A stretch of 45,183 bases of DNA from a virus. Where the stretch lies: positions 1 through 45,183 of IMG/VR virus record IMGVR_UViG_3300049484_000153; one strand, written 5' to 3'. The notes under the pieces were generated by a model. It searched no databases. It saw only the letters and a list, made by a program, of their open reading frames with translations, and was not told where the DNA came from. A program made the position numbers and the translations under genes. Positions 4,919 to 45,183 of this stretch are shown here, piece after piece (position 1 is the stretch's first letter; every line of letters starts with the position of its first letter).

Positions 4919-5095
4919 ATGCCTCAAAAAGAGATGGGAGTCATTCCAGGCTCTCCGCTGGCCAAGTTGTTAGCCCGTCTCGAACGTCACGACCGCAGAC
5001 TCCTTCTTGCCGCTGTTCAGGCTGCACCTGGACCGCGGCGAGAGAAGCTTCAACGCGAGATCAGGAAGCGGCTTTTTGAGTTGGGCATCGAGTGA
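4919..5095 (+). CDS. Small basic helical protein upstream of the carbohydrate cassette
   Basis: A 58-residue gene with a GAAAGGGACGAG ribosome-binding region before its ATG and a stop overlapping the following GTG. The sequence is rich in Arg/Leu (for example LAKLLARLERHDRRLLLAAV) and should form one or two amphipathic helices. It is the first gene of the operon with the glycan-modifying enzymes. Function unknown. Confidence 0.65.
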   Translation: MPQKEMGVIPGSPLAKLLARLERHDRRLLLAAVQAAPGPRREKLQREIRKRLFELGIE

Positions 5096-25931: not shown

Positions 25932-28405
25932 TGCAAGCGCTCTCGCCAGAACTTGAGGCAATCCTCAAGTCATACTTCCAAGCAGGAGCTTCGGGGTTCA
26001 ATGGGCGCGTCGAGGTTTCAAGCATCCTCGCTCCTGCTGAAGGAACCACAACTAACGTCGCTCTTACCGGGACCGTCACGTATGACGCGCTCGCTGATCC
26101 TGAACCAGTCACGCTCTTCTCTGGGACATGGGGTGACATCGTTCCAACTGATCCAACCAATGTCAATGACGGAAATGATCTGACTTACTCGAGATACCCC
26201 GGGATGGGCGGTTTGCTGGGGTCAGGATCCGTCCTTCGGCGTTGGACGATTGATCTCGGAAGTATGCATGTCATTGAGAACCTCCGCGCCGTCGAGAACT
26301 TTGAACACACGGCTTATTGGGATGGAACTGAATGGATAGACTTTTCAACGAGTTGGGTGCTTCAGTCTAACATCGCTCCAGGCATTGACTCATACACAAT
26401 GACCTTCACACCCATTCAAGCATCGAAGATCCGCGTCGGGAGTCGCATCCCTAATCCGACTGGGACGCTTGGATATTGGGGCGTTGGTGACGCGAGACTC
26501 TACGAGCTCGGCATCATGGGATACCCGCTGACCTATGCGGCGATTAGCATCAAGCCTAAGAGAATGAGCATTGACAAGTCGCTCCGAATGATCGCCGATC
26601 AAGCTTCATTCGAGTTTGTCAATGAGGATCTCCCTCTCGGATGGGGTGCGAACGGTGACTTCCTGACAAATGCGAGAGTGACTGCTTACCAATGGTACGG
26701 CGACGAGGCCGATGAGGTTCAGGTCTTCACTGGCATTGTCGATGCTATCGTGGATAGTCGTGATCCTCTGACGACCGTGATCACGTGTCGGGACATGATG
26801 GGTATCTTGGTTGATCAAACATTCGGCGCTACAGCGCCTCAGACAACCGGAGAGACCGGTGTCGTTCGGACGATGGACAACGGCGTGTACCTCGCGATGG
26901 AAGTGTCAGACATCGTTGAGGACATTCTCGACAGAGCCGGTTGGCCGACCGCTAACCGAGAGATCACGCCTACGAGTTATGTCCTCGACGAATACATCAT
27001 CCCGGACGGAACCTCAAGGGCCGACGCGATCATTGGTGATGATGTTCTGACTGGCCTTGTTGGGTACAGCGCTTGGGCTGATGAACTCGGTGTCTTCCAC
27101 TTCGCACCGACTCTGCTCGCGGGTTCTCTAACGGAACCAGGGACTCCAGCATACACCTTCCGTTCGGGCGAAGACATCGTCAGCCTAAGCGACTCCACCG
27201 ATCAGTATGACCTTCGAACACGGGTCAAGGTTCGTGGTCCACTCACCACACAGACCCTCACCGATACGTGGCGCGAACTCTGGCGGACACGCAAGATCTC
27301 AAAGCCAGTTGGGATCTGGTACGCTCCGTCTGAGCCCACGATCATCCGTGTTCTGGACCGTGGGACCAAGCGCATGTACAGGATCCGCCAGTCGGATCGA
27401 GTCGTGCTTGGCTCGACAGACATAGGCGCCGTCATCACCTACCCGCTTGGTCTTTCGGGTGATCCTTCAGACTCAACGATCTACTGGGTCCTGAATGGTC
27501 CGTGGTTGTGGGGGTCGGGCGCTACAAACCAGATTGTCAAGGTTCGTAAGAGTGACTCGCACGTTCTCGCTCGCTACAACCTCCCGTCAGGCAACTGGTC
27601 CTCGATCAAGGTCTCGGGTTCCTACATCTACCTCGCAAACCTTTCAACGGATCGGATCTACCGGCGGTCCAAGTCGACTGGCGCTGCGGTCGATGACTTC
27701 CGCCACACCTACTCGAGCGTCCTCCAATCCAACCCATCCGGCATCATGATCGACGGCACCGAGATCAATGTGTTCTGGTCGAATGGTGGGACTACGGCAA
27801 GGTTCCTTCAGTGCGACGAAAGCGCACCAGGGACTGTCACCAAACGAGTCAAGACGGCCGGTACCGTCCTCGTTGGTGGTGAGATGGATACCACGACTCA
27901 CACCGAGTGTTGGGGAGGATCTGACTCGCTTGGATTGGTCGCCAAGTTCACACTCGTCGCTCTCGTTGATGTCACGACCGAAGTCTTCGCAGAGGTTGTC
28001 GACATCGATCTCGAGGATGAACTTGGTGGTCTTGCTGAGAGCGAGTCACGTGTCCACGACGCTCACACCGGCGACGCTGCTCACGCTTTCGAGATCCGCA
28101 GAGATACACTTGACATCGCTATCGTCACGTCGTTGGCGCAGGCGACCGAGACAGCGATGCGTCGTCTTGACATGTTGTCTCAGCGTCGGCGTGTTCTGGA
28201 CACCGGTATAATCGGAAACCCGGCCCTCCAAAAGACGGACCTTGTCAGAGTGGAAGATCCATTGACAGCAATCGCTGAGGACATGATCATCGACACTTAC
28301 CGATCCGAGATGACCGCTGATGGCACCTATCTCGGAACGTTAGCGTTGCTTCCTGTCTCATCTCCAGACGAGACTGTGACAGATGATGGTACGGCAACCG
28401 AATGA
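25931..28405 (+). CDS. Large tail-tip protein with discoidin-like and propeller-like regions
   Basis: An 824-residue tail protein. It starts with a helix and a short tail-hub-like region. Residues about 65-180 resemble a discoidin/F5-8C carbohydrate-binding fold (LRRWTIDLGSMHVIENLRAVENF, then YWDGTEWIDFSTSW). The middle returns to the hub-like fold (VITCRDMMGILVDQ). Residues about 480-680 have repeating Trp/Tyr/Ser-rich strands (STIYWVLNGPWLW, SIKVSGSYIYLANL, GIMIDGTEINVFW) like a beta-propeller. It ends with another hub-like region. It probably forms the tail tip and contacts host-surface glycan. Confidence 0.7.
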   Translation: MQALSPELEAILKSYFQAGASGFNGRVEVSSILAPAEGTTTNVALTGTVTYDALADPEPVTLFSGTWGDIVPTDPTNVNDGNDLTYSRYPGMGGLLGSGSVLRRWTIDLGSMHVIENLRAVENFEHTAYWDGTEWIDFSTSWVLQSNIAPGIDSYTMTFTPIQASKIRVGSRIPNPTGTLGYWGVGDARLYELGIMGYPLTYAAISIKPKRMSIDKSLRMIADQASFEFVNEDLPLGWGANGDFLTNARVTAYQWYGDEADEVQVFTGIVDAIVDSRDPLTTVITCRDMMGILVDQTFGATAPQTTGETGVVRTMDNGVYLAMEVSDIVEDILDRAGWPTANREITPTSYVLDEYIIPDGTSRADAIIGDDVLTGLVGYSAWADELGVFHFAPTLLAGSLTEPGTPAYTFRSGEDIVSLSDSTDQYDLRTRVKVRGPLTTQTLTDTWRELWRTRKISKPVGIWYAPSEPTIIRVLDRGTKRMYRIRQSDRVVLGSTDIGAVITYPLGLSGDPSDSTIYWVLNGPWLWGSGATNQIVKVRKSDSHVLARYNLPSGNWSSIKVSGSYIYLANLSTDRIYRRSKSTGAAVDDFRHTYSSVLQSNPSGIMIDGTEINVFWSNGGTTARFLQCDESAPGTVTKRVKTAGTVLVGGEMDTTTHTECWGGSDSLGLVAKFTLVALVDVTTEVFAEVVDIDLEDELGGLAESESRVHDAHTGDAAHAFEIRRDTLDIAIVTSLAQATETAMRRLDMLSQRRRVLDTGIIGNPALQKTDLVRVEDPLTAIAEDMIIDTYRSEMTADGTYLGTLALLPVSSPDETVTDDGTATE

Positions 28406-28740
28406 CAAGTGTACGCGACTATGCTGTCCTCTATCTTGGTGCCTCAGGAAAGAAGGTTGGAGGTTCTCTGGGAGGCGGTAATGTCTCCACTGGGACAACG
28501 CCTCATATCCTTGATGGTGTAGAACACACGTTGGCTGGGGATAGTACTCGTCTCGATGCATCAACGACTGCTCATGGGCTTCTGCCTAAGTTGTCGGGCG
28601 ACGCAACGACATTCCTCAACGGTCTTGGCGCATTTGCGTCCCTTGGGTCTCTTCCTGTATGGGAGCCAATGATCGCTAGCGACGGTACGGTGATGACCGA
28701 CGGCTTACTCAATCCGATGATGCATGAGGTCACATACTAA
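28402..28740 (+). CDS. Small tail fibre protein
   Basis: A 112-residue protein with a central fibre-like segment, [20 protein letters not shown], then [18 protein letters not shown]; such sequences are common at fibre tails and necks. Coupled by ATGA and TAATG to its neighbours. Likely a fibre or attachment piece of the tail tip. Confidence 0.62.
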
Positions 28741-29795
28741 TGGCTGGACCCACCGTACTGTTCAAGACCGGTATCCATTCTGCTCGACCTGCCTCGGCCG
28801 CCGGGACCGTTCTCTACTTCTGCACGACTCACAACAAGATCGAACTCGACAGTGGCACGTCGTGGTCTGATCTATTCGATCTCACAACCGTTCCTTCTTC
28901 GGACGCTGAACTCACGGCACTCGCCGCCCTAACTTCCGCAGCAGATAAGGTGCCGTACTTCACCGGATCCGGGACTGCGGCGCTCGCCGATCTCACTTCG
29001 TTCGTGCGGACAATCCTTGATGATGTGGATGCGGCGGCTGTACGCACAACGTTGGGTCTCGGGACAGCTGCGACTCAAGCCTCTACTGCATTCGATGCTG
29101 CTGGTGATGCGGCCGCTGTCAAGGGTCTTCCTCTGGCGCTCACAGGCGCCGTCTCCGCCACGCGCTATGCCGGTGGTACGGCGTCCGTCGCTCCAACGAC
29201 AGGGACATTCGCTGTCGGAGACTTCGTTGTCGCTCAGACAGGCTCGATCTTTGTCTGCACAGTCGCTGGGACACCTGGAACATGGGTCAGTATCGTGGCT
29301 GGCGGCATCACTGGTCTCGTCGTCAAAGACGAAGGCTCCACTCTCACGACAGATGCGACTACTCTGGACTTTGTTGGTTCTGGCGTCACCGCTTCAGGTA
29401 CTGGCGCATCGAAGACGATCACTATCCCTGGTGCGGCAGTCTCGGCTATCGAGATCGTCATTGACGGTGGAGGCGTGGCCATTACGACCGGCATCAAAGG
29501 TGATCTGGTCGTTCCCTTTGCGTGCACGATCAACGAAGCAACCATCCTCGCTGACCAATCAGGATCTATCGTCATCGATGTCTGGAAAGACACGTATGCG
29601 AACTATCCTCCAGTTGTGGGTGACTCGATCACGGCTTCTGCAAAGCCGACGATCTCGAGCGCGACTAAGTCTCAAGATGCGACTCTCACTGGATGGACAA
29701 CGAGTGTTTCCGCTGGTGACACCCTCCGGTTCAATGTAGACTCCTGCACGTCGATCACCCGTATCGTGCTCGTCCTGAAGGTTACACGAACCTAA
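28740..29795 (+). CDS. Tail fibre protein
   Basis: A 351-residue protein. The N-terminal region is a small beta domain with a typical neck ([18 protein letters not shown]). Residues about 85-125 have [20 protein letters not shown], a helical coil seen in many phage fibres. The following part is Gly/Ala/Thr-rich, then a C-terminal beta-sandwich-like domain ([20 protein letters not shown] to LVLKVTRT) that could be the receptor-binding tip. Confidence 0.75.
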
Positions 29796-30460
29796 TGGCA
29801 ATCGCTCTAAGAGGATCCGCCACATCGGCGACATCCATCTCAGCCTCTTCAGTATCTATCAACTATCCAACAGGGCACGTCAGCGGAGACGTGCTTGTCA
29901 TGATGGTCTCACACATCTATTCAGGTGGACTCGGCATCACGACTCCTACTGGGTGGACACTACTCACGTCGCAGACTGTTGGGTTCATTCTTCAAAAGAC
30001 TTTTTGGCGGGTTGATGATGGTACACTTGGATCAAGTCTCACTGTCAACGTCAACTTGTCGGGCGGCACAAATGTCATCATGTATGCCTTCTCTGGGGCA
30101 TCTACATCCGCTCCAGCATCTGCGCAATACGCAGGTAATGCAACGACATCGGCCACAGCGACATTCAACGCCTTAGGAACGTGGGCAAGTAACAACGGCT
30201 GGGATCTCTGTTTCGCAACCTTCTACCAAGGAGGTTCTGCTGTCACTGCAGGAGAGGTTTCAGGATACACATCAGGGCCTACACCAAACGTATCCACGTG
30301 GGGTCGATCTCACGCAAATGACTTGACTCAAACTGGTGTCACCACTATCGGGTCAAAGACAGCGACATGGAGTGCGTCGCGAGATAATGCGACAGCGCAC
30401 ATCTTCATCGGTGAGCCGGTTACCGCAGTCACGACGTTCCAAACTGCGATCATTCTCTAA
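29795..30460 (+). CDS. Minor tail or receptor-binding beta protein
   Basis: A 221-residue Ser/Thr/Gly-rich protein starting at TAATG. It resembles minor tail proteins with one extracellular sandwich domain: PTGHVSGDVLVMMVSHIYSG, TPTGWTLLTSQTVG, and regular strands to the end. Last gene of the tail operon. It may bind the host receptor. Confidence 0.62.
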   Translation: MAIALRGSATSATSISASSVSINYPTGHVSGDVLVMMVSHIYSGGLGITTPTGWTLLTSQTVGFILQKTFWRVDDGTLGSSLTVNVNLSGGTNVIMYAFSGASTSAPASAQYAGNATTSATATFNALGTWASNNGWDLCFATFYQGGSAVTAGEVSGYTSGPTPNVSTWGRSHANDLTQTGVTTIGSKTATWSASRDNATAHIFIGEPVTAVTTFQTAIIL

Positions 30461-32202: not shown

Positions 32203-33516
32203 ATGGCTCAACTTTGCGGCTGGAAGACCCCCGCAACCGGACTTCGTGAGTGCACCAACGAACGTTGGAAGGTCGGCGCGACATACTGCGCCATCCACGA
32301 GGATGAGTATCGTGCAGCACGTCGCGGCAAGCCCAGTACACCCCGCGCTCCTCGCGTCGTGGTGAACCTGGCGGATCAGAACATTCCCGAGGGACGCACC
32401 CACGCCTACGTCGTGTCCAAGGACCTCCGCGCTCTTTGGGACGCGGCGATGGTCGGAGCGACAAAGCGGCCCGCAGGCAACTTCCTCTTCATCGGTCCTC
32501 CCGGATCGGGCAAGACGGACGGTGCGGAGTCCCTCGCCATCGAGGCTGGGCTCGACTTCACGAAGGTCGATGCCGCTTCGATGACCGACCCCGAGGCGTG
32601 GTTCGGGACCCGCGAGATCGTGGTCCAGGACGGTGTCGCCGTCACGGACTACAAGCCATCGATCTTCGTGGAGTCCATCCAGAAGCCGGGCATCACCTTC
32701 ATCGATGAGATCAACCGATGCCGCGATGAGGGTCGCAACATCATCATCCCGATCATCGACCACACGCGGGCCGTGATGAACCCGCTTACGGGCGACATCA
32801 TCACCCGCCACCCACAGAACTTCATCATCATGGCGGGCAACGTTGGACTCGCCTTCACGGGTACATCGTCCATCGACCCCGCCTTCTGGACTCGCGCCAC
32901 CGTCGTTGAGTTCGAGTACACCGATGAGGCATCCGAACGGTCCATCGTGGAGACCGCGACTGGATGCGATGCCGAGTCGGCATACGTCCTCGTACGCTTT
33001 GCCGTCGACTCCCGGGCTCGCGCCGCCAACGATGACGAGTTCCCCGCGATCTCGACTCGCGAGTTGATCGCCGCCGGTGAGCACATCGCCGATGGGCTCT
33101 CACGGGACCTCGCGGTCAAGTTCAACATCCTCAATCACGCCTCCGGTGAGGGTGGCAACGCCTCGCTACGCAACGAGCTCAACAACATCTGGACCGGTGT
33201 TCGAGCGGCGAAGTTGCCCGAGGCGAACCCCGGCCCAAAAGTCCCAACGCCTGACCAGAGTGGTTGGGTCTGTCCAGTCCATCATGTCGTGAAGACGGTC
33301 CCCGCCGGGGTGTCGACAAAGACAGGTCGCGCATATACCGCCTTCAAGGCGTGCAGCGCTCTAGGTTGCCCGAACACCGAGTCCAACGGGACAGCATGGA
33401 ACGCCGCCGCCATCAAGACAACCTCAGGAGCGGGGCTCCACTGCCAAGACTGCGGCCAGATCAACCCGGTCGGACGCACAACGATCTGCGTCTCCTGCGG
33501 GTCATCTCTTACCTGA
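32203..33516 (+). CDS. MoxR/CobS-type AAA+ ATPase with zinc modules
   Basis: A 437-residue AAA+ protein. Walker A is GPPGSGKT (98-105), Walker B FIDEIN (166-171); the later PQNFIIMAGN and a sensor-like Arg-rich region fit the MoxR/CobS clade. The N-terminus has C5, C17, C29 and H32, and the C-terminus has CPVHH, C-x5-C, and CQDCG...CVSCG, making at least two zinc sites that are unusual for the clade. MoxR proteins work with vWA partners to remodel or insert metal into target proteins; the partner is the next gene. GAGGAG lies before the ATG. It follows the 32099 repeat region. Confidence 0.82.
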   Translation: MAQLCGWKTPATGLRECTNERWKVGATYCAIHEDEYRAARRGKPSTPRAPRVVVNLADQNIPEGRTHAYVVSKDLRALWDAAMVGATKRPAGNFLFIGPPGSGKTDGAESLAIEAGLDFTKVDAASMTDPEAWFGTREIVVQDGVAVTDYKPSIFVESIQKPGITFIDEINRCRDEGRNIIIPIIDHTRAVMNPLTGDIITRHPQNFIIMAGNVGLAFTGTSSIDPAFWTRATVVEFEYTDEASERSIVETATGCDAESAYVLVRFAVDSRARAANDDEFPAISTRELIAAGEHIADGLSRDLAVKFNILNHASGEGGNASLRNELNNIWTGVRAAKLPEANPGPKVPTPDQSGWVCPVHHVVKTVPAGVSTKTGRAYTAFKACSALGCPNTESNGTAWNAAAIKTTSGAGLHCQDCGQINPVGRTTICVSCGSSLT

Positions 33517-33560
33517 AACATGGTATGGACAATCGCTGGTCGCCAGGCGAGAATAGACTT
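33514..33560 (+). promoter_or_regulatory. Sigma70-like phage promoter, copy 3
   Basis: TGAAACAT, then TGGACA at 33526-33531, a 17-base spacer, and GAGAAT at 33549-33554, followed by AGACTT. The -10 box differs from copies 1 and 2 by T to G at position 1, so it should be weaker. It starts inside the MoxR stop codon and reads into the vWA gene. Confidence 0.82.
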
Positions 33561-33595
33561 GGCGATCACGCCTTAGCACCAAGGAGGACATTCCA

Positions 33596-35551
33596 GTGAC
33601 TCTCGCGGATTACGACTTTGACCGCGGCATCTTCGATGACGACGATGACTTCGAGAGCGATGATCTCGAAGACATCGAGGCATCCGACCACTCATACCTG
33701 AAGGGTATGTGGAGCGGGTTCCGCGCAACATCCAACGCCACATTCGATGAAGGCGTTGGTTCTCAACTTGCGCAGGACACCATCCTCGCTCACGGGATGG
33801 TCCAGTCATTCGTCAACGCCTTCGCCCGTGACGGGTACTACGTGGTCACATTCGATCCGCACACCTCGACCGCTGGCACCGACATGCATGCCAAGCACGT
33901 GGCGATCACGCCGGCTCCCATCGCCGATAAGGATCTCACCGCCGAAGAGGCGGGCCTGATCCTCACGGGACTCGCCACTCACGAGATCTCTCATCCGCGC
34001 TATGGGCGCCGAACCGCTCAAGCAGTCGACGCGGCCTTCCCGGGCAATGGCACCGCATCGCGACTCTCGAACCTCCTCGATGACATCCGCATCGAGAAGC
34101 GGTTCATCGCCGACTACCCAGGCTACGCGGGCATCTTCGAACCCACACTCAACTACGTTGGTGCGGCCAGTCTCAAGCGGGACAAGATCCTGGGACTCCG
34201 CAAGCCATCGCTCAACGCTCCCGTCAACCTCGCCATCGGCGCCACGCGATATCCCTCCTTCAATGACTGGTCGGACCCCGCGATCAAGGCGGAGTTCGAC
34301 TGGTGGAATGATTGGGCCGTCCGCGGGTCGCGCGAGGATGCTCCGATCCGCCACGTTGGCTTCATCCGCGAAGCCCTCCAGCACATCGCCGCTCTCAAGG
34401 CACAGCAGAAGAAGGCGCAATCAACCACCGCACCCTCCGCGTCGTCCTCTTCGTCAGGCACGGGTGACAGCGACCCGAGCCCGTCAACACCCTCAGGCGG
34501 CGAGAAGTCAGAAGCCGCACCGCTCGACGATGACACGCTCAACCAGATCACGATGCCCGCTAACTACTATGATCCCGAAGACACGAAGACCGAGGACGAC
34601 ACGAACCCAATGGATGGGTGCTCGGGTTCGGCAGCAGTAGACAAGGCCGCGGCCGAAGGCGATACCACCTATAAGGAGATCGCCGCCCTCAAGAATGAGG
34701 CCGAGAACATCGTTCAGAATGCCCGCAACCAAGAGAGCGATGGACACGGCAACAAGGTCGATGTCAGCAAGTCGCTCCGCGGGATCACGGGTGGTCTTCC
34801 GAAAGCACGCCCATCAGCGGTTGCGGCGAAGTACATTCGCAACGCGATCATGCAGTCCAGGACGGGACACACCGACCACGCGCCGTTCAAGCGTCATGGC
34901 CGCCTCGATCAGCGCGGCATCGCACGCATTGCGAAGGGCGACTACCGGGTCTTCGAGAAGCGGACCGCTCCGTCCGTCGGACGCTTCAACATCTGGGTGA
35001 TGGTCGATGCATCATCCTCCATGGAATGGGGTGGTTGGAGTGAGCAGGCGCCGCTTCAAAATGCAGCCGCCGTTGGTCATGCGATGGCCGTTGCTTCGCA
35101 GACCATCCCGACCGTCAGGATGAGCCTCTGGGCATGGTCCTCGCCATTCCGTTCTGGCGCATACGCCGATGGCGGTGCGGCTCTCGCCTGGAAGACCGGG
35201 ATGAAGACCGACCAGGCACTCCGCCTCTCGACCGTCAAGACCGGCGGGACACCCGACGCGGTCGTCATGGGATGGGCCGGTCGAGCCATCCTCAAGGAGA
35301 CCGTTGGCGAGGAGACACCCGTCATCATCTTCATCAGTGACGGTGCGGGATACGGCGAGATGAATGCCCGCATCGAAGAAGCCCGTAAGGCCGGCGTCGA
35401 GGTCTACGGTGTCTCCTTCTCGGGAGGCATGGATGATGTCGACAGTCGACGGTTTGGGAAGAACAACTACGTTCCGTGGAAGGGGTCCATCGAGGAAACG
35501 GCACGACCACTCGCCACGCTCTTCGCCCGCATCACGGGTATGGCGCGATGA
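33596..35551 (+). CDS. Zincin-like and vWA-domain protein (CobT/MoxR partner)
   Basis: A 651-residue protein. The N-terminus is very acidic (DDDDDFESDDLEDIE). Residues about 110-175 form a zincin-like segment: HEISH (129-133), followed by LLDDIRIEKRF, where a third ligand could sit. A low-complexity Ser/Pro/Asp linker spans about 275-380. The C-terminal vWA domain has the MIDAS D471-x-S-x-S and later VIIFISDGAGYG. Such proteins pair with MoxR/CobS ATPases as metal-chelatase or chaperone complexes. Expressed from the 33514 promoter. Whether it chelates metal, cuts protein or remodels a virion or replication complex is open. Confidence 0.8.
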   Translation: MTLADYDFDRGIFDDDDDFESDDLEDIEASDHSYLKGMWSGFRATSNATFDEGVGSQLAQDTILAHGMVQSFVNAFARDGYYVVTFDPHTSTAGTDMHAKHVAITPAPIADKDLTAEEAGLILTGLATHEISHPRYGRRTAQAVDAAFPGNGTASRLSNLLDDIRIEKRFIADYPGYAGIFEPTLNYVGAASLKRDKILGLRKPSLNAPVNLAIGATRYPSFNDWSDPAIKAEFDWWNDWAVRGSREDAPIRHVGFIREALQHIAALKAQQKKAQSTTAPSASSSSSGTGDSDPSPSTPSGGEKSEAAPLDDDTLNQITMPANYYDPEDTKTEDDTNPMDGCSGSAAVDKAAAEGDTTYKEIAALKNEAENIVQNARNQESDGHGNKVDVSKSLRGITGGLPKARPSAVAAKYIRNAIMQSRTGHTDHAPFKRHGRLDQRGIARIAKGDYRVFEKRTAPSVGRFNIWVMVDASSSMEWGGWSEQAPLQNAAAVGHAMAVASQTIPTVRMSLWAWSSPFRSGAYADGGAALAWKTGMKTDQALRLSTVKTGGTPDAVVMGWAGRAILKETVGEETPVIIFISDGAGYGEMNARIEEARKAGVEVYGVSFSGGMDDVDSRRFGKNNYVPWKGSIEETARPLATLFARITGMAR

Positions 35552-35568: not shown

Positions 35569-36174
35569 ATGGACCAGTCTCAGATCGCCTCAGACGCTCT
35601 CAGAGGTCACACTTTGAGCGAGGTACGCGATACGCCAGTCACTAGTAAGGTGGGTCGCTCCGGTCGTCAGAGAGGCACAGAGGCCAGGCGCGTACCGCAT
35701 GACGAGATCGTCGCTATCGCGCAGGCCATCGTGCTCCCGGAAGGCGTCACGGACCTGCGTATGACGGTCCATCACGATCATGGAGACAAGCTCCCCAACG
35801 GCAACTGGAGCGGCCTGGGCGGAAAGACCATGTTCGGTCCAGTGTTCGTCATCGGTGGACGACTCGAGAGTGAGCCCATCCACCTCTTCGAAAGTCAGAA
35901 AGATGCCATCGCTCTTCATGCGATGCTCACAGGAGATGAAGGAGACCTATGGCACAGGAAACAACGCCGGCTCGAAGCGCTTGCTGCGGCGGAGATTGCG
36001 GAGGCGGAGGCAGTTGCGATCTTGAAGGAGAATGCAAAGACTGTTCGCCGAGCGAACGAGGGTGGCGGTGGCTCGAGTCGACCGTCGCGCTCCAGCGCGA
36101 AGCGTACGGCTTCGAGTGGACCGGGACTGAGTCGGCGGGAGAGGTTGCGAGCAGCCTCAAAGACAACCTCCTAG
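35569..36174 (+). CDS. Hypothetical protein overlapping the dUTPase-like gene
   Basis: A 201-residue protein from an ATG preceded by AGGAGGTAGCCCA; an upstream ATG at 35548 overlapping the vWA stop is possible. The first two thirds look like a small alpha/beta domain with a basic N-terminus; the end has an Ala/Glu helix then a Ser/Arg-rich tail. The last 226 bases also encode the N-terminal part of the next gene in another frame. No family recognised. Confidence 0.6.
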   Translation: MDQSQIASDALRGHTLSEVRDTPVTSKVGRSGRQRGTEARRVPHDEIVAIAQAIVLPEGVTDLRMTVHHDHGDKLPNGNWSGLGGKTMFGPVFVIGGRLESEPIHLFESQKDAIALHAMLTGDEGDLWHRKQRRLEALAAAEIAEAEAVAILKENAKTVRRANEGGGGSSRPSRSSAKRTASSGPGLSRRERLRAASKTTS

Positions 36175-36425
36175 CGGCGATGGTCGAACTCTCGGGCGAG
36201 GTACCCCGCGAGTTCCACTGGAAGTACTGGAGTCACACCGAACCATTCGTCAATCGGATGCGAGTCCTTGATGAACTCGTCGATGTCCTCCACTTCATCG
36301 CCAACATGCTCATCGCCATCGGCGTTGACGACACGGAACTCGAGATCGCCTACAAGTACAAGCAACGGATCAACCGCGAGCGACAGGGTGCGAAGTATGT
36401 CGCCGCACAAGGAAAGGACGTATGA
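35949..36425 (+). CDS. All-alpha dUTPase/dCTPase-like NTP pyrophosphohydrolase
   Basis: A 158-residue protein with a very good AAGGAG site. After a Cys-rich N-terminus (C12, C13, C17, C23, C29, C32), the dimeric dUTPase-type domain begins at about residue 42: LQREAYGF, then the metal motif E80-x3-E84, FHWKYW (89-94), and DELVDVLHF (E109, D112). Members, like the related T4 gp56 dCTPase-dUTPase, split dNTPs to dNMP and pyrophosphate. In this cassette it would supply dCMP or dUMP and lower dCTP. Its first 226 bases overlap the preceding gene in another frame. Confidence 0.75.
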   Translation: MAQETTPARSACCGGDCGGGGSCDLEGECKDCSPSERGWRWLESTVALQREAYGFEWTGTESAGEVASSLKDNLLAAMVELSGEVPREFHWKYWSHTEPFVNRMRVLDELVDVLHFIANMLIAIGVDDTELEIAYKYKQRINRERQGAKYVAAQGKDV

Positions 36426-36838
36426 CCAGACTCTCGTGGGATCAGTACGCTCTCAACCTCGCGCACGCCGCGGCGACACGCAGTGAGGATCCGTACCATC
36501 AGGTCGGAGTGGCTCTGATGCGCCCTGACCACACCGTAGCAGCGGTCGGATACAACGGAGCGCCGTCGGGCGTCGACATCGACTGGTCAGATCGTGACGC
36601 TCGCCGAGCGCAGGTCATCCATGCGGAAGCGAACGCCCTCCGCTATGTTCGTCCCGGCGAGGTCGGGACGCTCGTGACTACGATGATGCCGTGCGCTAAC
36701 TGCGTGCTTCTGATGTCGTCTTACGGCATCCGTCGAGTCGTCTACACCGGTGAACTGGACCCTGCGGTCTACGACACCACATTCATCCGCGAACTCGCGA
36801 ACGAGTGCGGCATCGAGATCGTCAAGGAGCGCGCATGA
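36422..36838 (+). CDS. dCMP deaminase
   Basis: A 138-residue zinc deaminase. HAE (67-69) holds the zinc ligand and catalytic Glu; PCANC (90-94) holds the other two zinc Cys; YNGAPSG (44-50) is the typical substrate-loop motif. It turns dCMP into dUMP, feeding thymidylate synthesis. Its start and stop both overlap neighbours, so it is co-expressed with the dUTPase-like and hydroxymethylase genes. The combination resembles the T4 pyrimidine route. Confidence 0.9.
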   Translation: MTRLSWDQYALNLAHAAATRSEDPYHQVGVALMRPDHTVAAVGYNGAPSGVDIDWSDRDARRAQVIHAEANALRYVRPGEVGTLVTTMMPCANCVLLMSSYGIRRVVYTGELDPAVYDTTFIRELANECGIEIVKERA

Positions 36839-37611
36839 AAGTCTACCTCGCTGGACCGATGTCCGGCATCAAAAGTTTCAACATCCCCGCGTTCCAGGCC
36901 GCCACCAAAGTCCTTCGAGACAACGGCCACATCGTGATCTCGCCAGTCGAACTCGACGGAGCTCAAGACCGGGCCATTCTTCTACAGAGTGAACACGGTG
37001 ATCACAAAGATCTTCCGCGTCCCTACGAAGAGTACTTGAGCAACGATCACATCACGATCCGTGGTACTCCCGATCTCGATGCCATCGTCTGTCTCCCTGG
37101 GTGGGAGAACTCCTTCGGCGCACTCTCCGAAGTCGATCTCGCCGCGAGCCTCGGCATCCCGTCCTACCCGTACGACTCGGTCTTCGGGATGCGTATCCCG
37201 GACAAGGATGATCTCTACGATGCCGATGGGAAGTTCATCACTCACGCCGACAATCCTCTCCGTCAGCGCACCGTTACCGGGGGCGTGAAGGACAACCGCG
37301 GGAAGTTGCCCGTCGACTTGATCCCGTACGAGGCGCTTCGTGGCGCCGCCGAGGTGCTCGCCTACGGAGCGATCAAGTACAAGCCAAACAACTGGCGTCT
37401 CGGCCTCAAGTGGATGGAGACCTGGTCATCCCTTCAGCGTCACCTATGGGCGTGGAAGGAAGGCGAGGACCTCGACCCCGAGACGGGCAAGTCGCACATC
37501 GACCACGCAATGTGCCAGATGCTCTTCCTGGCGACATACGTCCACGACCCGAACATGGCGCAGTTCGATGATCGGTGGATCAACAGCGATCACAACGAGG
37601 CGAAGGCATGA
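36835..37611 (+). CDS. DUF4406-DUF5664 fusion (nucleotide-metabolism enzyme)
   Basis: A 258-residue protein from ATGA. Residues 1-115 match DUF4406, a nucleoside deoxyribosyltransferase-like fold: KVYLAGPMSG (2-11), DLDAIVCLPGWENSFGALSE and a following Ala/Leu-rich helix. Residues about 150-240 match DUF5664, related to dATP/dGTP diphosphohydrolases of MazG type: KLPVDLIPYEALRGAAEVL, GAIKYKPNNWR, RHLWAWKEGEDLDPETGK. The fusion could process nucleotides for DNA modification, for example removing an unwanted dNTP or producing a modified precursor. No biochemical activity can be fixed from sequence. Confidence 0.75.
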   Translation: MKVYLAGPMSGIKSFNIPAFQAATKVLRDNGHIVISPVELDGAQDRAILLQSEHGDHKDLPRPYEEYLSNDHITIRGTPDLDAIVCLPGWENSFGALSEVDLAASLGIPSYPYDSVFGMRIPDKDDLYDADGKFITHADNPLRQRTVTGGVKDNRGKLPVDLIPYEALRGAAEVLAYGAIKYKPNNWRLGLKWMETWSSLQRHLWAWKEGEDLDPETGKSHIDHAMCQMLFLATYVHDPNMAQFDDRWINSDHNEAKA

Positions 37612-38429
37612 GCGCCGGGTACTACGACACATTCAGTGAAGCGTGGCTCGAGGAGATCGACGAGACCCGGTACAATGGGGAGGTGTCATCGCCTCGCGGT
37701 ATGAAGACCCGCGAACAGCGGTGGCGTCAGATCGTGGTGCACGAACCACTCTCGTTCCCTGTCGCTGTCAAGGGTCGCCAGTTCCGAGACGTGATCGGTG
37801 TCCTCGAGGGACTCTCGCTCGTTGGTCAGGTAAGCATCCCAGAGACATTCACATCGCGGGTCGCGAAGTTCGGCGACTTCCTCGACGATGGTGTCTTCCA
37901 TGGGGCGTATGCGACTCGCGCACACGGCGCCATCGGCGAAGTTGTCAATCTCCTCACACGTGATCCTGACTCTCGTCAGGCGGTCATCTCGGTCTTCGAC
38001 TCGAGCCGTGATCTCAACCGTATCAAGAGCGACATCCCCTGCACCATCGCACTCCACTTCATGAAGCGTGGCAAGGAACTTGAGATGAACGCCACGATGC
38101 GATCAAACGACATGTGGCTCGGGACGCCGTATGACTTCACGCAGTTCGCTATCCTTCAGGCAACCATCGCGCAGGCACTCAAACTGAAGCCCGGACTCTA
38201 TGTCCATTCGGCCGGGTCGCTTCATCTCTATGAGCGCGACTTCACGAAGGTTGACCTCATCGACTATGACGATGAAGCGAACACTGATCGGATGGACTTC
38301 CCCTTGTGGGGTGCCGATGATATCGGTGAGATCTCGTCACGAGCAAGGGCGCTGCTCCTCAACCCAAAGGACTTCCAACCAACCACGATGTTCGAGCGCT
38401 GGGCGCAAACCCACATGATGCTTGGATGA
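37608..38429 (+). CDS. dCMP hydroxymethylase-like thymidylate synthase homologue
   Basis: A 273-residue thymidylate-synthase-fold enzyme. Catalytic C145 lies in DIPCT, phosphate-binding residues in MRSND (164-168), and the C-terminal site in AGSLHLYERDF. Where thymidylate synthase has Asn for dUMP (PFN), this protein has Asp176 (PYDF), the residue used by T4 dCMP hydroxymethylase to choose dCMP. MRSND and GSLH-Y also match the T4 enzyme more closely than classical ThyA. It would make 5-hydroxymethyl-dCMP from methylene-tetrahydrofolate, or possibly 5-methyl-dCMP. It is the last gene of the nucleotide operon and overlaps the helicase start. Confidence 0.8.
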   Translation: MSAGYYDTFSEAWLEEIDETRYNGEVSSPRGMKTREQRWRQIVVHEPLSFPVAVKGRQFRDVIGVLEGLSLVGQVSIPETFTSRVAKFGDFLDDGVFHGAYATRAHGAIGEVVNLLTRDPDSRQAVISVFDSSRDLNRIKSDIPCTIALHFMKRGKELEMNATMRSNDMWLGTPYDFTQFAILQATIAQALKLKPGLYVHSAGSLHLYERDFTKVDLIDYDDEANTDRMDFPLWGADDIGEISSRARALLLNPKDFQPTTMFERWAQTHMMLG

Positions 38430-39940
38430 GCGCCATTGTCGTTGGTGATGAGATCGTCATCACCTCCCCGCACGGGAAGGAACTCAAGCAGCTTGGTGCT
38501 CGCTTGAACGCGGGGTCTTGGACGCTCCCTGCGACGAGGTTGAACGCCCAGCTGGTGAACGACCTCGCGCTCGGACTTCCGACGCTCTCAGTGGATCTGA
38601 GCGCGCCAGGGAACGTCGATGACGAGCGCCTCTACGGATACCAGCGCGACGCAGCAGCGCGACTGGCCACGGCCCCGCATGGACTCGTCCTTGTGGCGGC
38701 ACCCGGGTTGGGTAAGACCGCGATGGCTATCGCTGCTGCGGACGTGGCCGTACCCGATGACCGTGTCGTCATCATCGCGCCAGCGTCGCTCCTCGACACC
38801 TGGGCTCGCGAGATCCAGAAGTGGGCTCGAGTCCCGGGAAGCACTTACATCATGCGAGGTAAGGTTGATCACGACCTCGCGAGTGAAGCACGGTGGATCA
38901 TCACATCGTGGGACAAGGCAGTTCGAGAGCAAGCGACCTGGGGCAAGGGGTGGCCACTATGGATCTTGGACGAGAGTGTCCTGGCCAAATCTCGTGGCTC
39001 GAAGAGGTTCAAGACACTCACGAAACTCCGCCGCGACGTTCAACGCTTCTGGCTCCTGAGTGGGTCGCCAACCACTCGCTACTCGGACGATCTCTGGGCG
39101 CAACTCCACCTCCTGTGGCCGAAGGCCTTCTCGAGCTACTGGCGCTTCGCCGAACGGTACACCGTCGTCGAGCAGACACCGTGGGCTCGGGTCGTAACTG
39201 GCGACCGGGTTGGCCGGTCAGCCGCCGTCGACAACTCGGATCTAGTCCTCGTCATCAATGAAGAAGATGCTGGTCTCGATCTTCCCGACTACCTCTTCGA
39301 ACCGCCCCTGGCGGTGGCACTCGAAGGACCTCAACTCAAAGCCTACAAAGAAATGGCGAAGACCTTCATCGCGGAGTTGGAGAACGGGACCGAGGTCATC
39401 GCTGCCAATGAAGCATCGAAGCTTCTCCGACTCCAACAGATAGCCTCATACTTCGATGGTCACTCCGCCAAGCGAGCTGCTCTTCTCGAGGTAATCGGCC
39501 GCTATGAGCCGCCGTATCTCATTTGGACACATTGGAAGGACACATCGCGCGACCTCGAAGCATACCTGACCGGCGCTGGCATCAACGCTATCTCAGTCAC
39601 CGGTGAGACACCGGATAGAGACACGATCATCGAGGACTACAAAGCCGGGAACACCGAATGTTTGATCCTCTCACTCGGTGTCGGGAAGTTCGGTCACACC
39701 CTCACTAACACACGCACAGTCTTTGGATTGGACCGGAACTTCTCCGCCGACGACTATTACCAGTCGATGCATCGTGTCCGCCGCATCGGCCTTACTCACC
39801 GCCCAGTGGTCGTGCCCATCGTTGCCGTAGGAACGGTCGATGAACTCACTGTGGGTGACAACCTCGAAGCCAAACTAGGGGGTATCTCGCGAATGACTAG
39901 ATCAGACCTCGCATCACTCTTGAAGGGGCTCGGCCGGTGA
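38426..39940 (+). CDS. SNF2-type DEAD-like helicase
   Basis: A 504-residue superfamily 2 helicase. Q-like YGYQRDAAARL precedes motif I APGLGKT; motif II is LDES (a variant of DEAH), motif III LSGSPTTR, and motif VI QSMHRVRRIG. The N-terminal 50 residues resemble an HARP-like or beta-rich extension. SNF2-type phage helicases may remodel forks or recombination intermediates. It heads the replication/recombination block. Overlaps both neighbours by 4 bases. Confidence 0.85.
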   Translation: MSAIVVGDEIVITSPHGKELKQLGARLNAGSWTLPATRLNAQLVNDLALGLPTLSVDLSAPGNVDDERLYGYQRDAAARLATAPHGLVLVAAPGLGKTAMAIAAADVAVPDDRVVIIAPASLLDTWAREIQKWARVPGSTYIMRGKVDHDLASEARWIITSWDKAVREQATWGKGWPLWILDESVLAKSRGSKRFKTLTKLRRDVQRFWLLSGSPTTRYSDDLWAQLHLLWPKAFSSYWRFAERYTVVEQTPWARVVTGDRVGRSAAVDNSDLVLVINEEDAGLDLPDYLFEPPLAVALEGPQLKAYKEMAKTFIAELENGTEVIAANEASKLLRLQQIASYFDGHSAKRAALLEVIGRYEPPYLIWTHWKDTSRDLEAYLTGAGINAISVTGETPDRDTIIEDYKAGNTECLILSLGVGKFGHTLTNTRTVFGLDRNFSADDYYQSMHRVRRIGLTHRPVVVPIVAVGTVDELTVGDNLEAKLGGISRMTRSDLASLLKGLGR

Positions 39941-40434
39941 AAGCGCCACGCACACTCAGTCGAGATCTTCAAGCAAAGACACAAGTGTGGCTTTGCCTCG
40001 ACCCCGGTATCACGACCGGGATGGTGGTCATTGATGCCGACGGCGAACTTCGCGCAACGACCGTCTGGGGAACAGCCGAGGTGAAGGACTCGCTCGACAC
40101 AATGATCCGCGCGCTTCACCTGTCTGGGTACAAGATCATTGTTGTGATTGAGAAGATGCCTCCAGGTTCCTACGGTCAACTCGCCTCTAAGCTCGAGGCC
40201 GTTCGACGAGACATCTCGGTCGTTGTGGAAGAGACCTATGAACTTCCCGTTGTGTACATCGCACCTGGTGAGTGGAAGCCGTCACGCATGGCGAAGACCG
40301 TCAACATCAAGGGATGGAGGTTCAACGGAACGCCTATGATGACACATCAGAAGGACGCCTTCAGGATGGGGAGGTACTACCTCGACAAGGCACAACGATC
40401 TGCAGTTGACTCATGGGTAGGAAAGACCCACTGA
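39937..40434 (+). CDS. RuvC-like Holliday junction resolvase
   Basis: A 165-residue RNase H-fold nuclease with a GTG start. The acidic residues fit RuvC: D22 (LCLDPGITTG), E72 (VVIEKMPPGS), and H137-x2-D140 (THQKDAFRMG). It would resolve branched recombination or replication structures before packaging, alongside endonuclease VII and the Cas4-like nuclease. Confidence 0.78.
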   Translation: MKAPRTLSRDLQAKTQVWLCLDPGITTGMVVIDADGELRATTVWGTAEVKDSLDTMIRALHLSGYKIIVVIEKMPPGSYGQLASKLEAVRRDISVVVEETYELPVVYIAPGEWKPSRMAKTVNIKGWRFNGTPMMTHQKDAFRMGRYYLDKAQRSAVDSWVGKTH

Positions 40435-41528
40435 TGCAAGATCCAACCGGCCTTGAACCCTTCACACCAGTAACTATTCAGTCTACGTCCGCGACTGAAC
40501 GTGCGGGCTTTCGCAAGTGTCGTCGCCAGTGGTTCCTCACGACGGTCCACCGTCTCGACTCGAACCAGGGCAATGTCAACTTCTTCCTCGGCAACATCTA
40601 CCACGCCGCGCTCGCGGCGTACTACACCGCGCAGTACAACAACGAGGACATCGATGTCCGCGAGATCTTGGCGCTCGACACCTACCAAATGGAGTACGAC
40701 TCGCAAGTTGAGACACTCGTTGCCGATCTTGGGTCCATGTGGACCTACATCGAGCCGACCTTCCGCGAGGCCGGTGTACTTGGCCTCGAGATGCTTCAGA
40801 ACTATCTCGAACGTGAACGCCTTGAACCTCTGTTCGATGAAGTGATCGCCGTCGAGTTTCGGGTCAATGTCCCGATCACGAACATCGCTAGTGTCGAGGT
40901 TGGTATCCTTTCTGTCCAGGCTGATGTGGTTGGTCGGAAGAATGGAGAGCTCGCAGTCGCTGATCACAAGACGGCCTCGCGAGTCATGCCATCGAGTCAT
41001 CTCGACATCGATGACCAACTCACCGCCGAGGTCTACTCGTGGTGGAAGTTCTCGGGCGAGTTCCCCGAGAAGGCGATCTACAATGTCTCCTACAAGAAGG
41101 CCGTTGGTCCGCCCGCTCAGATCAAGGGCTCGAAGGCCAAGCCCATCAAACTCTCAAAGGCGAAGGGCCAGGCAACGACAGCAGCCCTCTACCGGGCCGA
41201 GATCGAAGCTCTAGGCCTCGACATCGGAGACTATGTCGACATCCTCACGACGCTCGAGGAACGGGCTGGCTCCGAGGACGATATGCTCTTCCGTCGTGAG
41301 GCGGTGTTCCGTACTCCCGGTCAGATGGAGTCCTTCGAACGGGACCTTTACTACGAGTGGACAGACATGCAGATGGTGGCTGCCGAGCCCGAGCGAGCGT
41401 ACCCGAACCCAACTTCGATGAACTGTTCGAACTGCCCGGTGCGAGCGATTTGCACCACGCTTCAGGACAACGGCGACGCCGAGTCCATCATCAAGGCTGG
41501 TTACACAATCGCTGATCCAAGACGTTGA
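40434..41528 (+). CDS. Cas4-like PD-(D/E)XK exonuclease with Fe-S Cys
   Basis: A 364-residue nuclease from TGATG; the upstream ATG at 40413 is less likely. C29 (FRKCRRQWFL), H57 and an Asp in QADVVGR lead to the catalytic core LAVADHKTAS (PD-(D/E)xK, motif III as DHK), and a C-terminal C-x2-C-x5-C (MNCSNCPVRAIC) completes the four-Cys Fe-S site typical of Cas4 and AddB-like nucleases. It probably makes single-stranded ends for the adjacent Sak4-like annealing system. No CRISPR array is present. Confidence 0.85.
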   Translation: MQDPTGLEPFTPVTIQSTSATERAGFRKCRRQWFLTTVHRLDSNQGNVNFFLGNIYHAALAAYYTAQYNNEDIDVREILALDTYQMEYDSQVETLVADLGSMWTYIEPTFREAGVLGLEMLQNYLERERLEPLFDEVIAVEFRVNVPITNIASVEVGILSVQADVVGRKNGELAVADHKTASRVMPSSHLDIDDQLTAEVYSWWKFSGEFPEKAIYNVSYKKAVGPPAQIKGSKAKPIKLSKAKGQATTAALYRAEIEALGLDIGDYVDILTTLEERAGSEDDMLFRREAVFRTPGQMESFERDLYYEWTDMQMVAAEPERAYPNPTSMNCSNCPVRAICTTLQDNGDAESIIKAGYTIADPRR

Positions 41529-41564: not shown

Positions 41565-41684
41565 GTGCCTAACATCAATTGGCCTGGCGTGATCGCCGTG
41601 GCGCTTATGGCGTTTGCAGCAATAGGCGTCATGGTTGTCTCATGGGCCATCGTGGACTTCGTCATCCGTCTCTTCGGATGGTAA
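41565..41684 (+). CDS. Single-pass membrane microprotein
   Basis: A 39-residue gene with a strong GAAAGGAG site before a GTG. It has one hydrophobic helix (VIAVALMAFAAIGVMVVSWAIV) and a short C-terminus FVIRLFGW. Its stop (TAA) overlaps the next start region. A membrane anchor or inhibitor of a host process is possible; the position between Cas4-like and Sak4-like genes suggests a role linked to DNA, but that is speculation. Confidence 0.62.
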   Translation: MPNINWPGVIAVALMAFAAIGVMVVSWAIVDFVIRLFGW

Positions 41685-42385
41685 GCGCCCGTAAGCCCGA
41701 GGACGCGAACTTCGCGAAGGTCCTCATCCATTCACCCGCGGGTCATGGTAAGACCCATCTACTTGGGACTGCGCAAGACGACGAGCGCACCTTCCCGATG
41801 GCCTTCCTGAACTTCGAAGGCGGCGAACAGACGTTGTCGGGACTCGACATCGACGTGTTCGACATCCGCGACTCGAAGGACTACGACGACGTGTACCGCG
41901 ACCTCAAGTCGGGGAAGACGGGACACAAGTCCGTCGGCGTGGACTCCATCACGGAGACACAGATCAGTTCCTTGCTCGAGATCCTCGACAAGGACACCGT
42001 CAAGCGAGCTGATCCCGATCAGCTCGCCCAGCAGGATTGGGGCATCGTCCTGATCCGCATGCGCCGCATCGTCAGGCAGTATGTCAAGATGCTGCCGATG
42101 CACGTGTTCATGACGGCGCTTAGTAAGGATGACGTGGTTCCTCGCGTTGGTAGTGTCAAGGCTCCTCAAGTGCAGGGGTCCTTCGCAACGGAACTTCCCG
42201 GCATCCTAGATGTGGTGGCATACCTCGCGTTGGAGGAAGACAAGGAAGGCACAGTCGAGCGCCTTCTGCTTCTTCAGGGATACCCAAAGTTCTCGGTCAA
42301 AGCACGAACCCCGTGGGGTGTGCAAGTGCCGACAGAGATCGTTGATCCCACCATCACCAAGTTGCTCGACGCACTCGGTTTCTAG
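41678..42385 (+). CDS. Sak4-like RecA-fold ATPase (single-strand annealing)
   Basis: A 235-residue P-loop protein. The Walker A is SPAGHGKTH (19-27), and SVGVDSITETQ provides the Walker B. It resembles the phage AAA/Sak4 family. These proteins act with a phage single-strand-binding protein in homologous recombination, and the following gene is a good candidate for that partner. It overlaps the membrane microprotein gene by 7 bases. Confidence 0.75.
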   Translation: MVSARKPEDANFAKVLIHSPAGHGKTHLLGTAQDDERTFPMAFLNFEGGEQTLSGLDIDVFDIRDSKDYDDVYRDLKSGKTGHKSVGVDSITETQISSLLEILDKDTVKRADPDQLAQQDWGIVLIRMRRIVRQYVKMLPMHVFMTALSKDDVVPRVGSVKAPQVQGSFATELPGILDVVAYLALEEDKEGTVERLLLLQGYPKFSVKARTPWGVQVPTEIVDPTITKLLDALGF

Positions 42386-43096: not shown

Positions 43097-45183
43097 ATGA
43101 AGCTAGCGCTCGTCAACGACTCGTTGCGCGCTGGTCGCCGCTCAGATGCGGAGTACATCGAGAAGGTTCTCGATAGTGTCTCGACGATGACCGGTATCGC
43201 TATCGACATGAAAGAGTTCGGAGCGACACCACCACAGGCTGGCGGAGTGGTTGGGAACCTGACGCTCGTCCGCGCTGAGGCTCCCCGTCTTCTGGGTGAG
43301 CTCGCCGACTGGAAGCCAGATGCCGTAGTGAGCATGGGCAAGATGCCGCTCAACGCTCTCGGCGATGGGTCACTAAAGGTCCTCAAGAAAGAACATGGGC
43401 GCATGCGTTGGCTCGACCTTGGAGACTACCAAGTCCCGTGGACACCCGGCCCAGCTCCGATCTTCGTCGTGAAGCAGGGTGGCTCGGATCTACATAAGGA
43501 CTTCGCCAACGTCATCTACAAAGCGGTGACTCAACCCGCCCCTCTTCCAGAGACTCCCATTGACTTGCATGTTGCGACGGATGCGGATAATCTCGCGAAG
43601 GCATTGGATCTTCTCGAAGGCGCGTCCGTCATCGGAGTAGACGTGGAGACCGGCGGTCTGAGCGCCTACAGCGCTGACCTCACCGCCGTTGGCTTTGGAG
43701 CGTACGGCGACGACTACGGCATCGCGGTCGTGGTTCCGAAGTGGCTCCTCTTTGATCATGACTGCATTGAGCTGATGTGGGACGCGACGTGGAGAAAGAC
43801 CCGTCGCAGTGTCGGCCACAACTTCAAGTTCGATATGCAGTTCCTCGAGCGACTCATCGGGTGGGCGCCGGACGGAGCGTCCATCGGAGACACGCTGCTC
43901 CTCGCTCACTTGCTCGATGAACGTCCGACCAGGATGAACACGCGAGCCCGAGGGAGTGGACTCAAGGACCTTGTAGCGCAGCGATATGACCTCGACTACG
44001 GGTTCGACTTCACGACGGCGTATGACGCGCTGTCAAATGCCGAGGTCAACGACCTTCATGTCTACCTCGGGAAGGACGTTGTCTACACCGCAAGGCTCTG
44101 GCACGACATGGCCGCGGAGGCTGAGGCCGAGAGCCCGAACCTCATGAAGGCGCACGAGGCACTCCTCGCTCCCGCCGCTAAGGCTATCGCTCGCTGTGAA
44201 CTCGCTGGCGCTCCTATCGACAAGCCGTGGGTCACCGACACGATGGCTACCATCGAGCGTCGGATCGACAGGCGCATGAAGGCTCTCGAGTCGGCCATCC
44301 AGCGACTGACTCTCACGCTTGTCGTGGACAACATCATGAGCCCGACACAGATCGCCGACGTGATGTATGACGAGTGGCAGATGACACCTGATATTCGTGG
44401 TCGTCGTCATAAGGCTCGTAGCACGGATAAGGATCACATCGACGCGGCGGTCGCAAAGTACATCAATGGTCCGAAGTTCCGTCAGGCTCGATGGCTTCGA
44501 GCGTTCGTCCAGCTTCGCAAGGACGTGAAAGTCCTGACCACCTACCAGAAGAGCATCCTCGACCGACTCGATGATGACGGTCGTGTGCGAGCTTCGTTCC
44601 TGCTCCACGGTACATCGACCGGGCGACTCTCCTCGCAAGGCCCGAACCTTCAGAACGTCCCCGCCGTCAAACGAACAGGCGCCGATATCGTCCGACCCAT
44701 GCGGCGAGCGTTCGCTCCGCCTCCGGGCCGGATCTGGTGCGACGTGGACTACTCGCAGTTGGAGCTTCGTGTCGCGGCTGGTATCTCTGGCGACGAGGCG
44801 ATGTCTGAGGTCTTCCGATCAGGCCGTGACGTGCATATGGAGATCGCAACAGCGATCTTCTCGAAGGACGCCTCGAAGATCTCGCCTGCCGAGCGGTTCA
44901 TCGCGAAGTCAGTCTCGTTTGGCATCATCTACGGACGAACGGCGAAAGCCATCGCTGAAGGTGCCGAGATGGATTACGCCGAGGCTCACGGCATGGTACG
45001 GTGGACCGAAGAACAGGCCGAAGCCTTCGTGCAGAAGTTCCTGCGGAGTTACCCGCAGCTCGAAGAATGGATTGCGAGCCAGCACGCGAATGTTCTCATC
45101 GACCACTATGTCGAGAGTCCGTTCGGTCGCCGGCGACGCTTCGACCTCATCCCTGAAAGGGAAGTCGGAGCAGTGCAAAGACA
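43097..45183 (+). CDS. polA: Family A DNA polymerase, 3' end beyond the window
   Basis: At least 695 residues, cut by the window edge. Residues 1-140 may be a uracil-DNA-glycosylase-like domain (WKPDAVVSMGKMPLNALGDG). The 3'-5' exonuclease follows with DVE (182-184) and HNFKFD. Polymerase motif A is DYSQLELR (D551 to R558), and motif B is RFIAKSVSFGIIYG (R600, K604, F608, Y612). Motif C (HDE) lies outside. F608 at the sugar-selecting position suggests normal preference for dNTPs over ddNTPs. It is the replicative polymerase of the phage. The ATG follows GAGGTGATGTT. Confidence 0.92.
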   Translation, partial: MKLALVNDSLRAGRRSDAEYIEKVLDSVSTMTGIAIDMKEFGATPPQAGGVVGNLTLVRAEAPRLLGELADWKPDAVVSMGKMPLNALGDGSLKVLKKEHGRMRWLDLGDYQVPWTPGPAPIFVVKQGGSDLHKDFANVIYKAVTQPAPLPETPIDLHVATDADNLAKALDLLEGASVIGVDVETGGLSAYSADLTAVGFGAYGDDYGIAVVVPKWLLFDHDCIELMWDATWRKTRRSVGHNFKFDMQFLERLIGWAPDGASIGDTLLLAHLLDERPTRMNTRARGSGLKDLVAQRYDLDYGFDFTTAYDALSNAEVNDLHVYLGKDVVYTARLWHDMAAEAEAESPNLMKAHEALLAPAAKAIARCELAGAPIDKPWVTDTMATIERRIDRRMKALESAIQRLTLTLVVDNIMSPTQIADVMYDEWQMTPDIRGRRHKARSTDKDHIDAAVAKYINGPKFRQARWLRAFVQLRKDVKVLTTYQKSILDRLDDDGRVRASFLLHGTSTGRLSSQGPNLQNVPAVKRTGADIVRPMRRAFAPPPGRIWCDVDYSQLELRVAAGISGDEAMSEVFRSGRDVHMEIATAIFSKDASKISPAERFIAKSVSFGIIYGRTAKAIAEGAEMDYAEAHGMVRWTEEQAEAFVQKFLRSYPQLEEWIASQHANVLIDHYVESPFGRRRRFDLIPEREVGAVQR

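Follow-up and report, generated by a model that had tools for sequence, protein, structure and literature searches.

Among the closest described systems to the one treated here is that of bacteriophage T4, with gp56, the dCMP deaminase Cd and the dCMP hydroxymethylase gp42. In gp42, Asp145 lies three residues before the catalytic cysteine and activates water; thymidylate synthase (TS) has Leu there, and the D145N change abolishes the formation of 5-hydroxymethyl-dCMP (PMC6400193). Ser94 is named in the same work as one of three signature residues for dCMP hydroxymethylase. In the Streptomyces CMP 5-hydroxymethylase MilA, Ala176 and Lys133 are the ribose form of two positions for which Ser and Arg are the deoxyribose form (PMC5175136), while phage XP12 contains 5-methylcytosine (PMC9206674). 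In the MetaGPA study of phage contigs, positions 147 and 177 showed the strongest association with modified cytosine (PMC8670742). The window examined here is a whole linear IMG/VR virus record (IMGVR_UViG_3300049484_000153, 45183 bp), and the system in question is a cassette of four + strand genes at 35949-36425, 36422-36838, 36835-37611 and 37608-38429, predicted to encode a gp56-like enzyme, a dCMP deaminase, a DUF4406-DUF5664 fusion and a TS homolog.

That this cassette is a T4-style dCMP hydroxymethylase set is a well-supported prediction from sequence; it would be a variant of the known system, in a small actinophage genome, with no kinase and with an attached DUF fusion. The functions of T4 gp42, gp56 and Cd are all three predicted here. 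The window differs from T4 in that its genes form one coupled run, its TS homolog has 22-23% identity to gp42, no gp1-type kinase was found and it holds no T4-type glucosyltransferase sequence. Every cassette junction is a 4-bp ATGA overlap, including one into the SNF2 helicase gene at 38426; the third gene begins with the ATG at 36835, and a GTG that precedes it, at 36805, is not its start. The initial annotation, made from the sequence alone, had described four adjacent, overlapping genes of these families, and both the arrangement and the family calls hold, with Pfam matches well above chance.

The predicted dCMP hydroxymethylase and its cassette partners

The 273-amino acid TS homolog (37608-38429; PF00303, 1.1e-19) is identified as a predicted dCMP 5-hydroxymethylase of the TS superfamily from alignments, an AlphaFold2 (AF2) model and a tree. 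A profile scan of IMG/VR yielded the 80 relatives that were fetched, and the alignments used contain 9 to 94 sequences; single-protein scans with the TS homolog, the DUF fusion and the dUTPase_2 protein gave no confirmed relative there. The residues read from the alignments are E67, Y101, R123, D142, C145, T146, S166, D176, H206 and Y208. D176 aligns with N177 of E. coli ThyA and D179 of T4 gp42, and is Asp in all 80 relatives, so the substitution of the dUMP-selecting Asn that had been claimed for this protein is confirmed, as are the MRSND and GSLH motifs that it has in common with gp42. MilA, too, has Asp at the cytosine-selecting site, though its Ala176 and Lys133 correspond to S166 and R123 in the window, the deoxyribose form.

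A dCMP methylase, too, could have Asp at the selecting site, and a second residue is needed to tell the two apart. In the window the catalytic Cys stands in the sequence D142-I-P-C145, with Asp three residues before it as in T4, and this Asp is invariant in the 80 relatives. When read as a three-residue code (position -3 from the catalytic Cys, position +1 and the selecting site; 142, 146 and 176 in the window), the window protein, all 80 relatives and T4 gp42 have D,T,D. E. coli ThyA has L,H,N; the SPO1 dUMP hydroxymethylase and the Asn-type homologs of phages Montesquieu and LuckyBarnes have D,N,N; and DLP4, AAT-1 and PaMx28, the kin that represent XP12 (itself not in the collection searched), have N,P,D. 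Aeromonas phage Aes012 encodes both kinds of protein, an L,H,N TS of its own and a D,T,D copy of the gp42 type. The code offers a simple way of separating TS, dUMP hydroxymethylase, dCMP methylase and dCMP hydroxymethylase, most of which are annotated as "thymidylate synthase".

The AF2 model (pLDDT 91) has MilA as its best PDB match (fold E 2e-18), and sequence comparison likewise puts MilA first among solved structures (E 4e-18); the dCMP hydroxylase of phage HY126 is among the fold matches listed as well. In the tree, the window enzyme groups with Asp-type enzymes of actinophages and not with ThyA, while the enzymes of the XP12 kin group with ThyA (98/95). From these alignments, the model and the tree, we put the probability that the TS homolog is a dCMP 5-hydroxymethylase, with 5-hydroxymethyl-dCMP as its likely product, at about 0.87.

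The first gene of the cassette (35949-36425) encodes a 158-amino acid dUTPase_2 or T4 gp56-like NTP pyrophosphohydrolase with a Cys-rich N-terminus, a predicted dCTPase-dUTPase (PF08761, 1.5e-11). Its family profile matches T4 gp56 in hhalign (98%, E 8e-14, 108 columns). A tblastn search with this protein matched 25 phage records, 14 of which are actinophages with a TS homolog of the window type; the others are Microbacterium phages. The dCMP deaminase (36422-36838, 138 amino acids) has the HAE...PCxxC zinc motif and matches PF00383 (2.6e-17), phrog_174 (2.3e-36) and solved dCMP deaminases including T4 Cd (1vq2). The third protein (36835-37611) joins a nucleoside deoxyribosyltransferase-like DUF4406 domain (PF14359, 1.8e-16) to a domain of the dATP/dGTP diphosphohydrolase type (DUF5664, PF18909, 9.2e-30), the latter family now being named "dATP/dGTP diphosphohydrolase, N-terminal". 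In the nearest relative each of these two domains has a gene of its own; in the next, DUF5664 alone was found. Because relatives of the fusion are common across phages (1144 phage records), it does not appear to be part of the T4-style set; the likeness to T4 gp56, Cd and gp42 suggested in the initial annotation stands for the three enzymes, from the gp56 profile match and the residue code, and falls away for the fusion.

In the pathway that these assignments suggest, the gp56-like enzyme would hydrolyze dCTP, together with dUTP, to the monophosphate, and the TS homolog would then hydroxymethylate dCMP at C5, drawing on methylene-tetrahydrofolate and water. The deaminase would convert surplus dCMP to dUMP, from which host enzymes would make dTMP. 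To become the triphosphate, 5-hydroxymethyl-dCMP would have to be phosphorylated by a kinase of the host or by one that was not recognized, and the phage polymerase would incorporate hydroxymethyl-dCTP in place of some or all of the dC. 5-Hydroxymethylcytosine (hmC) in the DNA of these phages would then probably be glycosylated by a GT-B enzyme of the phrog_14998 family, discussed below. Judged from the gene content, it is likely that hmC or a derivative is a real component of the virion DNA, and such modified, possibly sugar-coated cytosine probably helps the phage to escape host defenses.

Relatives and a glycosyltransferase-like family

The clade of the TS homolog comprises at least 595 matching IMG/VR loci, including those of actinophages; if the assignment is true, T4-style cytosine replacement would be widespread outside the T4-like phages. 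In most relatives the gene order is kinase, TS homolog, deaminase, polymerase A, SNF2, nuclease, Sak4, one or more glycosyltransferase-like genes, dUTPase_2 and then a C5-methyltransferase-like gene. The kinase adjoins the TS homolog in 75 of the 80 loci; of the remaining five, three have the TS homolog at the end of their contig. Only L017 and L018 are true exceptions, and these are the window's nearest relatives, with 58% and 47% identity in the TS homolog. The contig of L017 (G001, 45011 bp) is apparently a complete circular genome, as a nuclease gene spans both contig ends with an overlap of about 40 residues, though no exact terminal repeat was found at these ends.

Among named phages, an Asp-type TS homolog and a dUTPase_2 relative are found, as in the window, in the Actinomycetia phage DSL-LC01 and in Gordonia phages Phendrix, GodonK, GMA2, Forza and Sixama (the Asp-type residue was checked for DSL-LC01, Phendrix, GMA2 and Forza). 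Where annotated, deaminase, polymerase A, SNF2 or helicase, RuvC and nuclease genes lie nearby. Unlike the window, these phages have a kinase adjoining the TS homolog where annotated (DSL-LC01, Phendrix and Forza) and a member of the phrog_14998 family in the same genome, and their genomes are of 103-130 kb as against about 45 kb. In the library searched, no literature on modified DNA was found for Gordonia or Microbacterium phages or for DSL-LC01.

The phrog_14998 family is not recognized by Pfam and carries the PHROG label "unknown function". G001 has a 358-amino acid member (L106:7620-8696) between primase and terminase, in a stretch that lies outside the window; the window has none, ending before the place held by this gene in its nearest relative. 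All 12 phage records that match the G001 copy also carry a TS homolog of the window type, and when IMG/VR was searched from the phrog_14998 side, the TS homolog was present in each of the 24 loci whose upstream sequence extends for about 10 kb, though some of these are near-copies and they do not make 24 independent cases. The first match of an AF2 model of one family member (pLDDT 78) is T4 beta-glucosyltransferase (BGT; 1qkj, E 7e-7, TM 0.59, 12% identity), and 1nzd, 1bgt and 1j39 are also among the top seven fold matches. Profile-profile comparison of the family with T4 BGT gave no detectable kinship, so that the link to BGT is one of predicted fold and co-occurrence.

Distant members of the family in T4-like phages adjoin the gene for arabinose-5-phosphate isomerase (Rgz1) or UDP-galactopyranose mutase (Aes012), neighbors which suggest that the sugar may be a furanose. 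The UDP-galactopyranose mutase gene adjoins the BGT-fold gene both in the actinophage DSL-LC01 (L002 19846-21982) and in the T4-like Aes012 (L192 2832-5014). Phage C48C1 (Kyanoviridae; L193 5007-6041) has a BGT-fold family member and no PF00303 gene, so the link between phrog_14998 and the TS homolog is strong, not absolute. On the modeled fold and its company in relatives, phrog_14998 is a candidate new family of hmC glycosyltransferases; for the window itself, its presence is a prediction. The fuller picture must be put tentatively: a lineage of actinophages of about 45 kb may make glycosylated hmC DNA by means of a BGT-fold family not known as such, perhaps with a furanose sugar and without a phage dNMP kinase, the C5-methyltransferase-like protein acting on modified or residual cytosine. 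If true, the family would point to a concrete enzyme that could be assayed for attaching a new sugar to hmC, of value as a reagent and in studies of how modified DNA is restricted in actinobacteria.

Alternative explanations

Several observations weigh against a working T4-style pathway in this phage. No hydroxymethyl-dCMP kinase was found in the window, in G001 or in G002 (the next relative) with PF02223, DNMK, the profile of the relatives' kinases or a P-loop motif; the same relatives' profile does detect kinases in G003 to G006. The 3' end of the record cuts the DNA polymerase gene (43097-45181), and genes can therefore be missing from the window. Since the apparently complete G001 has no kinase either, the gap is a trait of the lineage and not only an effect of the window edge; the earlier statement that no dNMP kinase is visible in the window holds. 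The dCMP deaminase is missing from G001, the nearest relative. The ExxE metal-binding motif of the dUTPase_2 enzyme has an extra Ser codon (ELSGE at 36186-36200, against ELxE in 10 relatives), which makes its activity less sure and possibly impaired, though ExxD is kept. In the TS homolog itself, the place of T4 Ser94 (a Ser/Thr two before Tyr96) is taken by Gly99 (G99-A-Y101), with Gly in all 80 relatives as well; the SPO1 dUMP hydroxymethylase has Ala there, so Ser/Thr may not be a general requirement. Lastly, a C5-cytosine methyltransferase-like gene (10772-12370, + strand; PF00145, 1e-15), in which the PPC, E and RxR motifs are kept, has a homolog after dUTPase_2 in 53 of 79 glycosyltransferase-bearing loci and also in the nearest relative. 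Complete replacement of cytosine is difficult to reconcile with such a conserved gene.

Part of this evidence would suit a decaying or repurposed module, in which the dCMP hydroxymethylase is real and its product enters the DNA little or not at all as the lineage has lost its kinase. The missing kinase in the window and both nearest relatives, the missing deaminase in one of them and the extra motif residue all fit. This explanation is nevertheless unlikely: the active site of the TS homolog is fully kept at 47-58% identity to these relatives, the cassette genes are coupled and intact, and the nearest relative still has the glycosyltransferase-like gene. The preferred reading, with hmC in the DNA, leaves a testable question for this kinase-free lineage, namely which enzyme phosphorylates hydroxymethyl-dCMP.

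Two further explanations concern the reaction itself. An XP12-type dCMP methyltransferase, giving a phage with 5-methylcytosine and not hmC, would draw on the finding, cited in PMC8670742, that replacing Asn by Asp is enough to convert TS to a dCMP methylase, and on the similar company of the gene in DLP4, AAT-1 and PaMx28, where a TS-superfamily enzyme with Asp at the selecting site lies near pyrophosphohydrolase and dCMP deaminase genes. What makes it very improbable is that the XP12-related enzymes combine N-x-x-C-P with a C-terminal tail like that of TS, besides their place beside ThyA in the tree, while the window protein has D-x-x-C-T and no such tail, and that Asn at the corresponding position of T4 gp42 costs the enzyme its hydroxymethylated product (PMC6400193). 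DHFR (dihydrofolate reductase) points the same way. Its gene lies close to the TS-homolog gene in the three XP12-kin phages, as expected because the cofactor of methylation leaves as dihydrofolate; searches of the window for DHFR and ThyX were negative, and the absence of DHFR fits hydroxymethylation, from which the cofactor would return as tetrahydrofolate. Ordinary nucleotide supply, with the TS homolog making dTMP from the dUMP of the dUTPase and deaminase and with unmodified DNA, would fit the gene names alone. Relatives of DUF4406 and DUF5664 are common in actinophages, and the one inspected Microbacterium phage with a dUTPase_2 relative shows no TS in its annotated stretch. It can be given hardly any credence when all 81 sequences have Asp, not Asn, at the selecting site and Asp, not Leu, at -3, and when the tree places the window enzyme with the Asp-type group, away from ThyA. 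Hydroxymethylation of dCMP remains the reading that we prefer.

Neighboring genes and host

The gene run continues on the + strand beyond the cassette. The SNF2-family helicase (38426-39940; PF00176, 1.1e-18), ATGA-coupled to the cassette, is a conserved neighbor in relatives; it is followed by a RuvC-like Holliday junction resolvase (39937-40434; phrog_1770, 1.6e-5) and a PD-(D/E)XK nuclease (40413-41528; PF12705, 3.3e-14), all three identified with the help of synteny. Further along the + strand are a Sak4-like single-strand annealing ATPase (41579-42385; phrog_124, 8.7e-34) and the family A DNA polymerase that is truncated where the contig stops (43097-45181; PF00476, 3.7e-58). A DNA-level search for known-phage relatives of the window found none. 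Its capsid protein is closest in sequence to those of Propionibacterium, Mycobacterium and Bifidobacterium phages, a kinship from which the host is probably actinobacterial.

After the terminase, at 5092-8245, are glycerophosphotransferase-like, polysaccharide pyruvyl transferase-like and two-domain galactosyltransferase-like genes, probably for modification of virion or surface glycans. A role for these sugar-transfer genes as hmC glycosyltransferases was weighed and dropped: their place is between the terminase and portal genes, their homologs in the nearest relative are beside capsid genes, and they match polysaccharide-synthesis families. Likewise, an identity of the C5-methyltransferase-like protein as a CmoX-type carboxymethyltransferase is unsupported, as it has CPPC where the CmoX motif is SPPC (PMC12783734), and no CmoA was noticed among the window genes. 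DSL-LC01 has a row of possible further base-modification genes (L101 5802-9140), encoding a TauD/TfdA dioxygenase, a methyltransferase, a mannosyltransferase and an Fpg/Nei glycosylase. Just upstream of the window cassette, at 32203-35551, lies a pair of genes encoding a CobS/CobT-like AAA ATPase and a von Willebrand-type protein; this pair is also found upstream of the L018 cassette and in DSL-LC01 at 27180-30142, where it is annotated as AAA ATPase and cobalamin biosynthesis protein.

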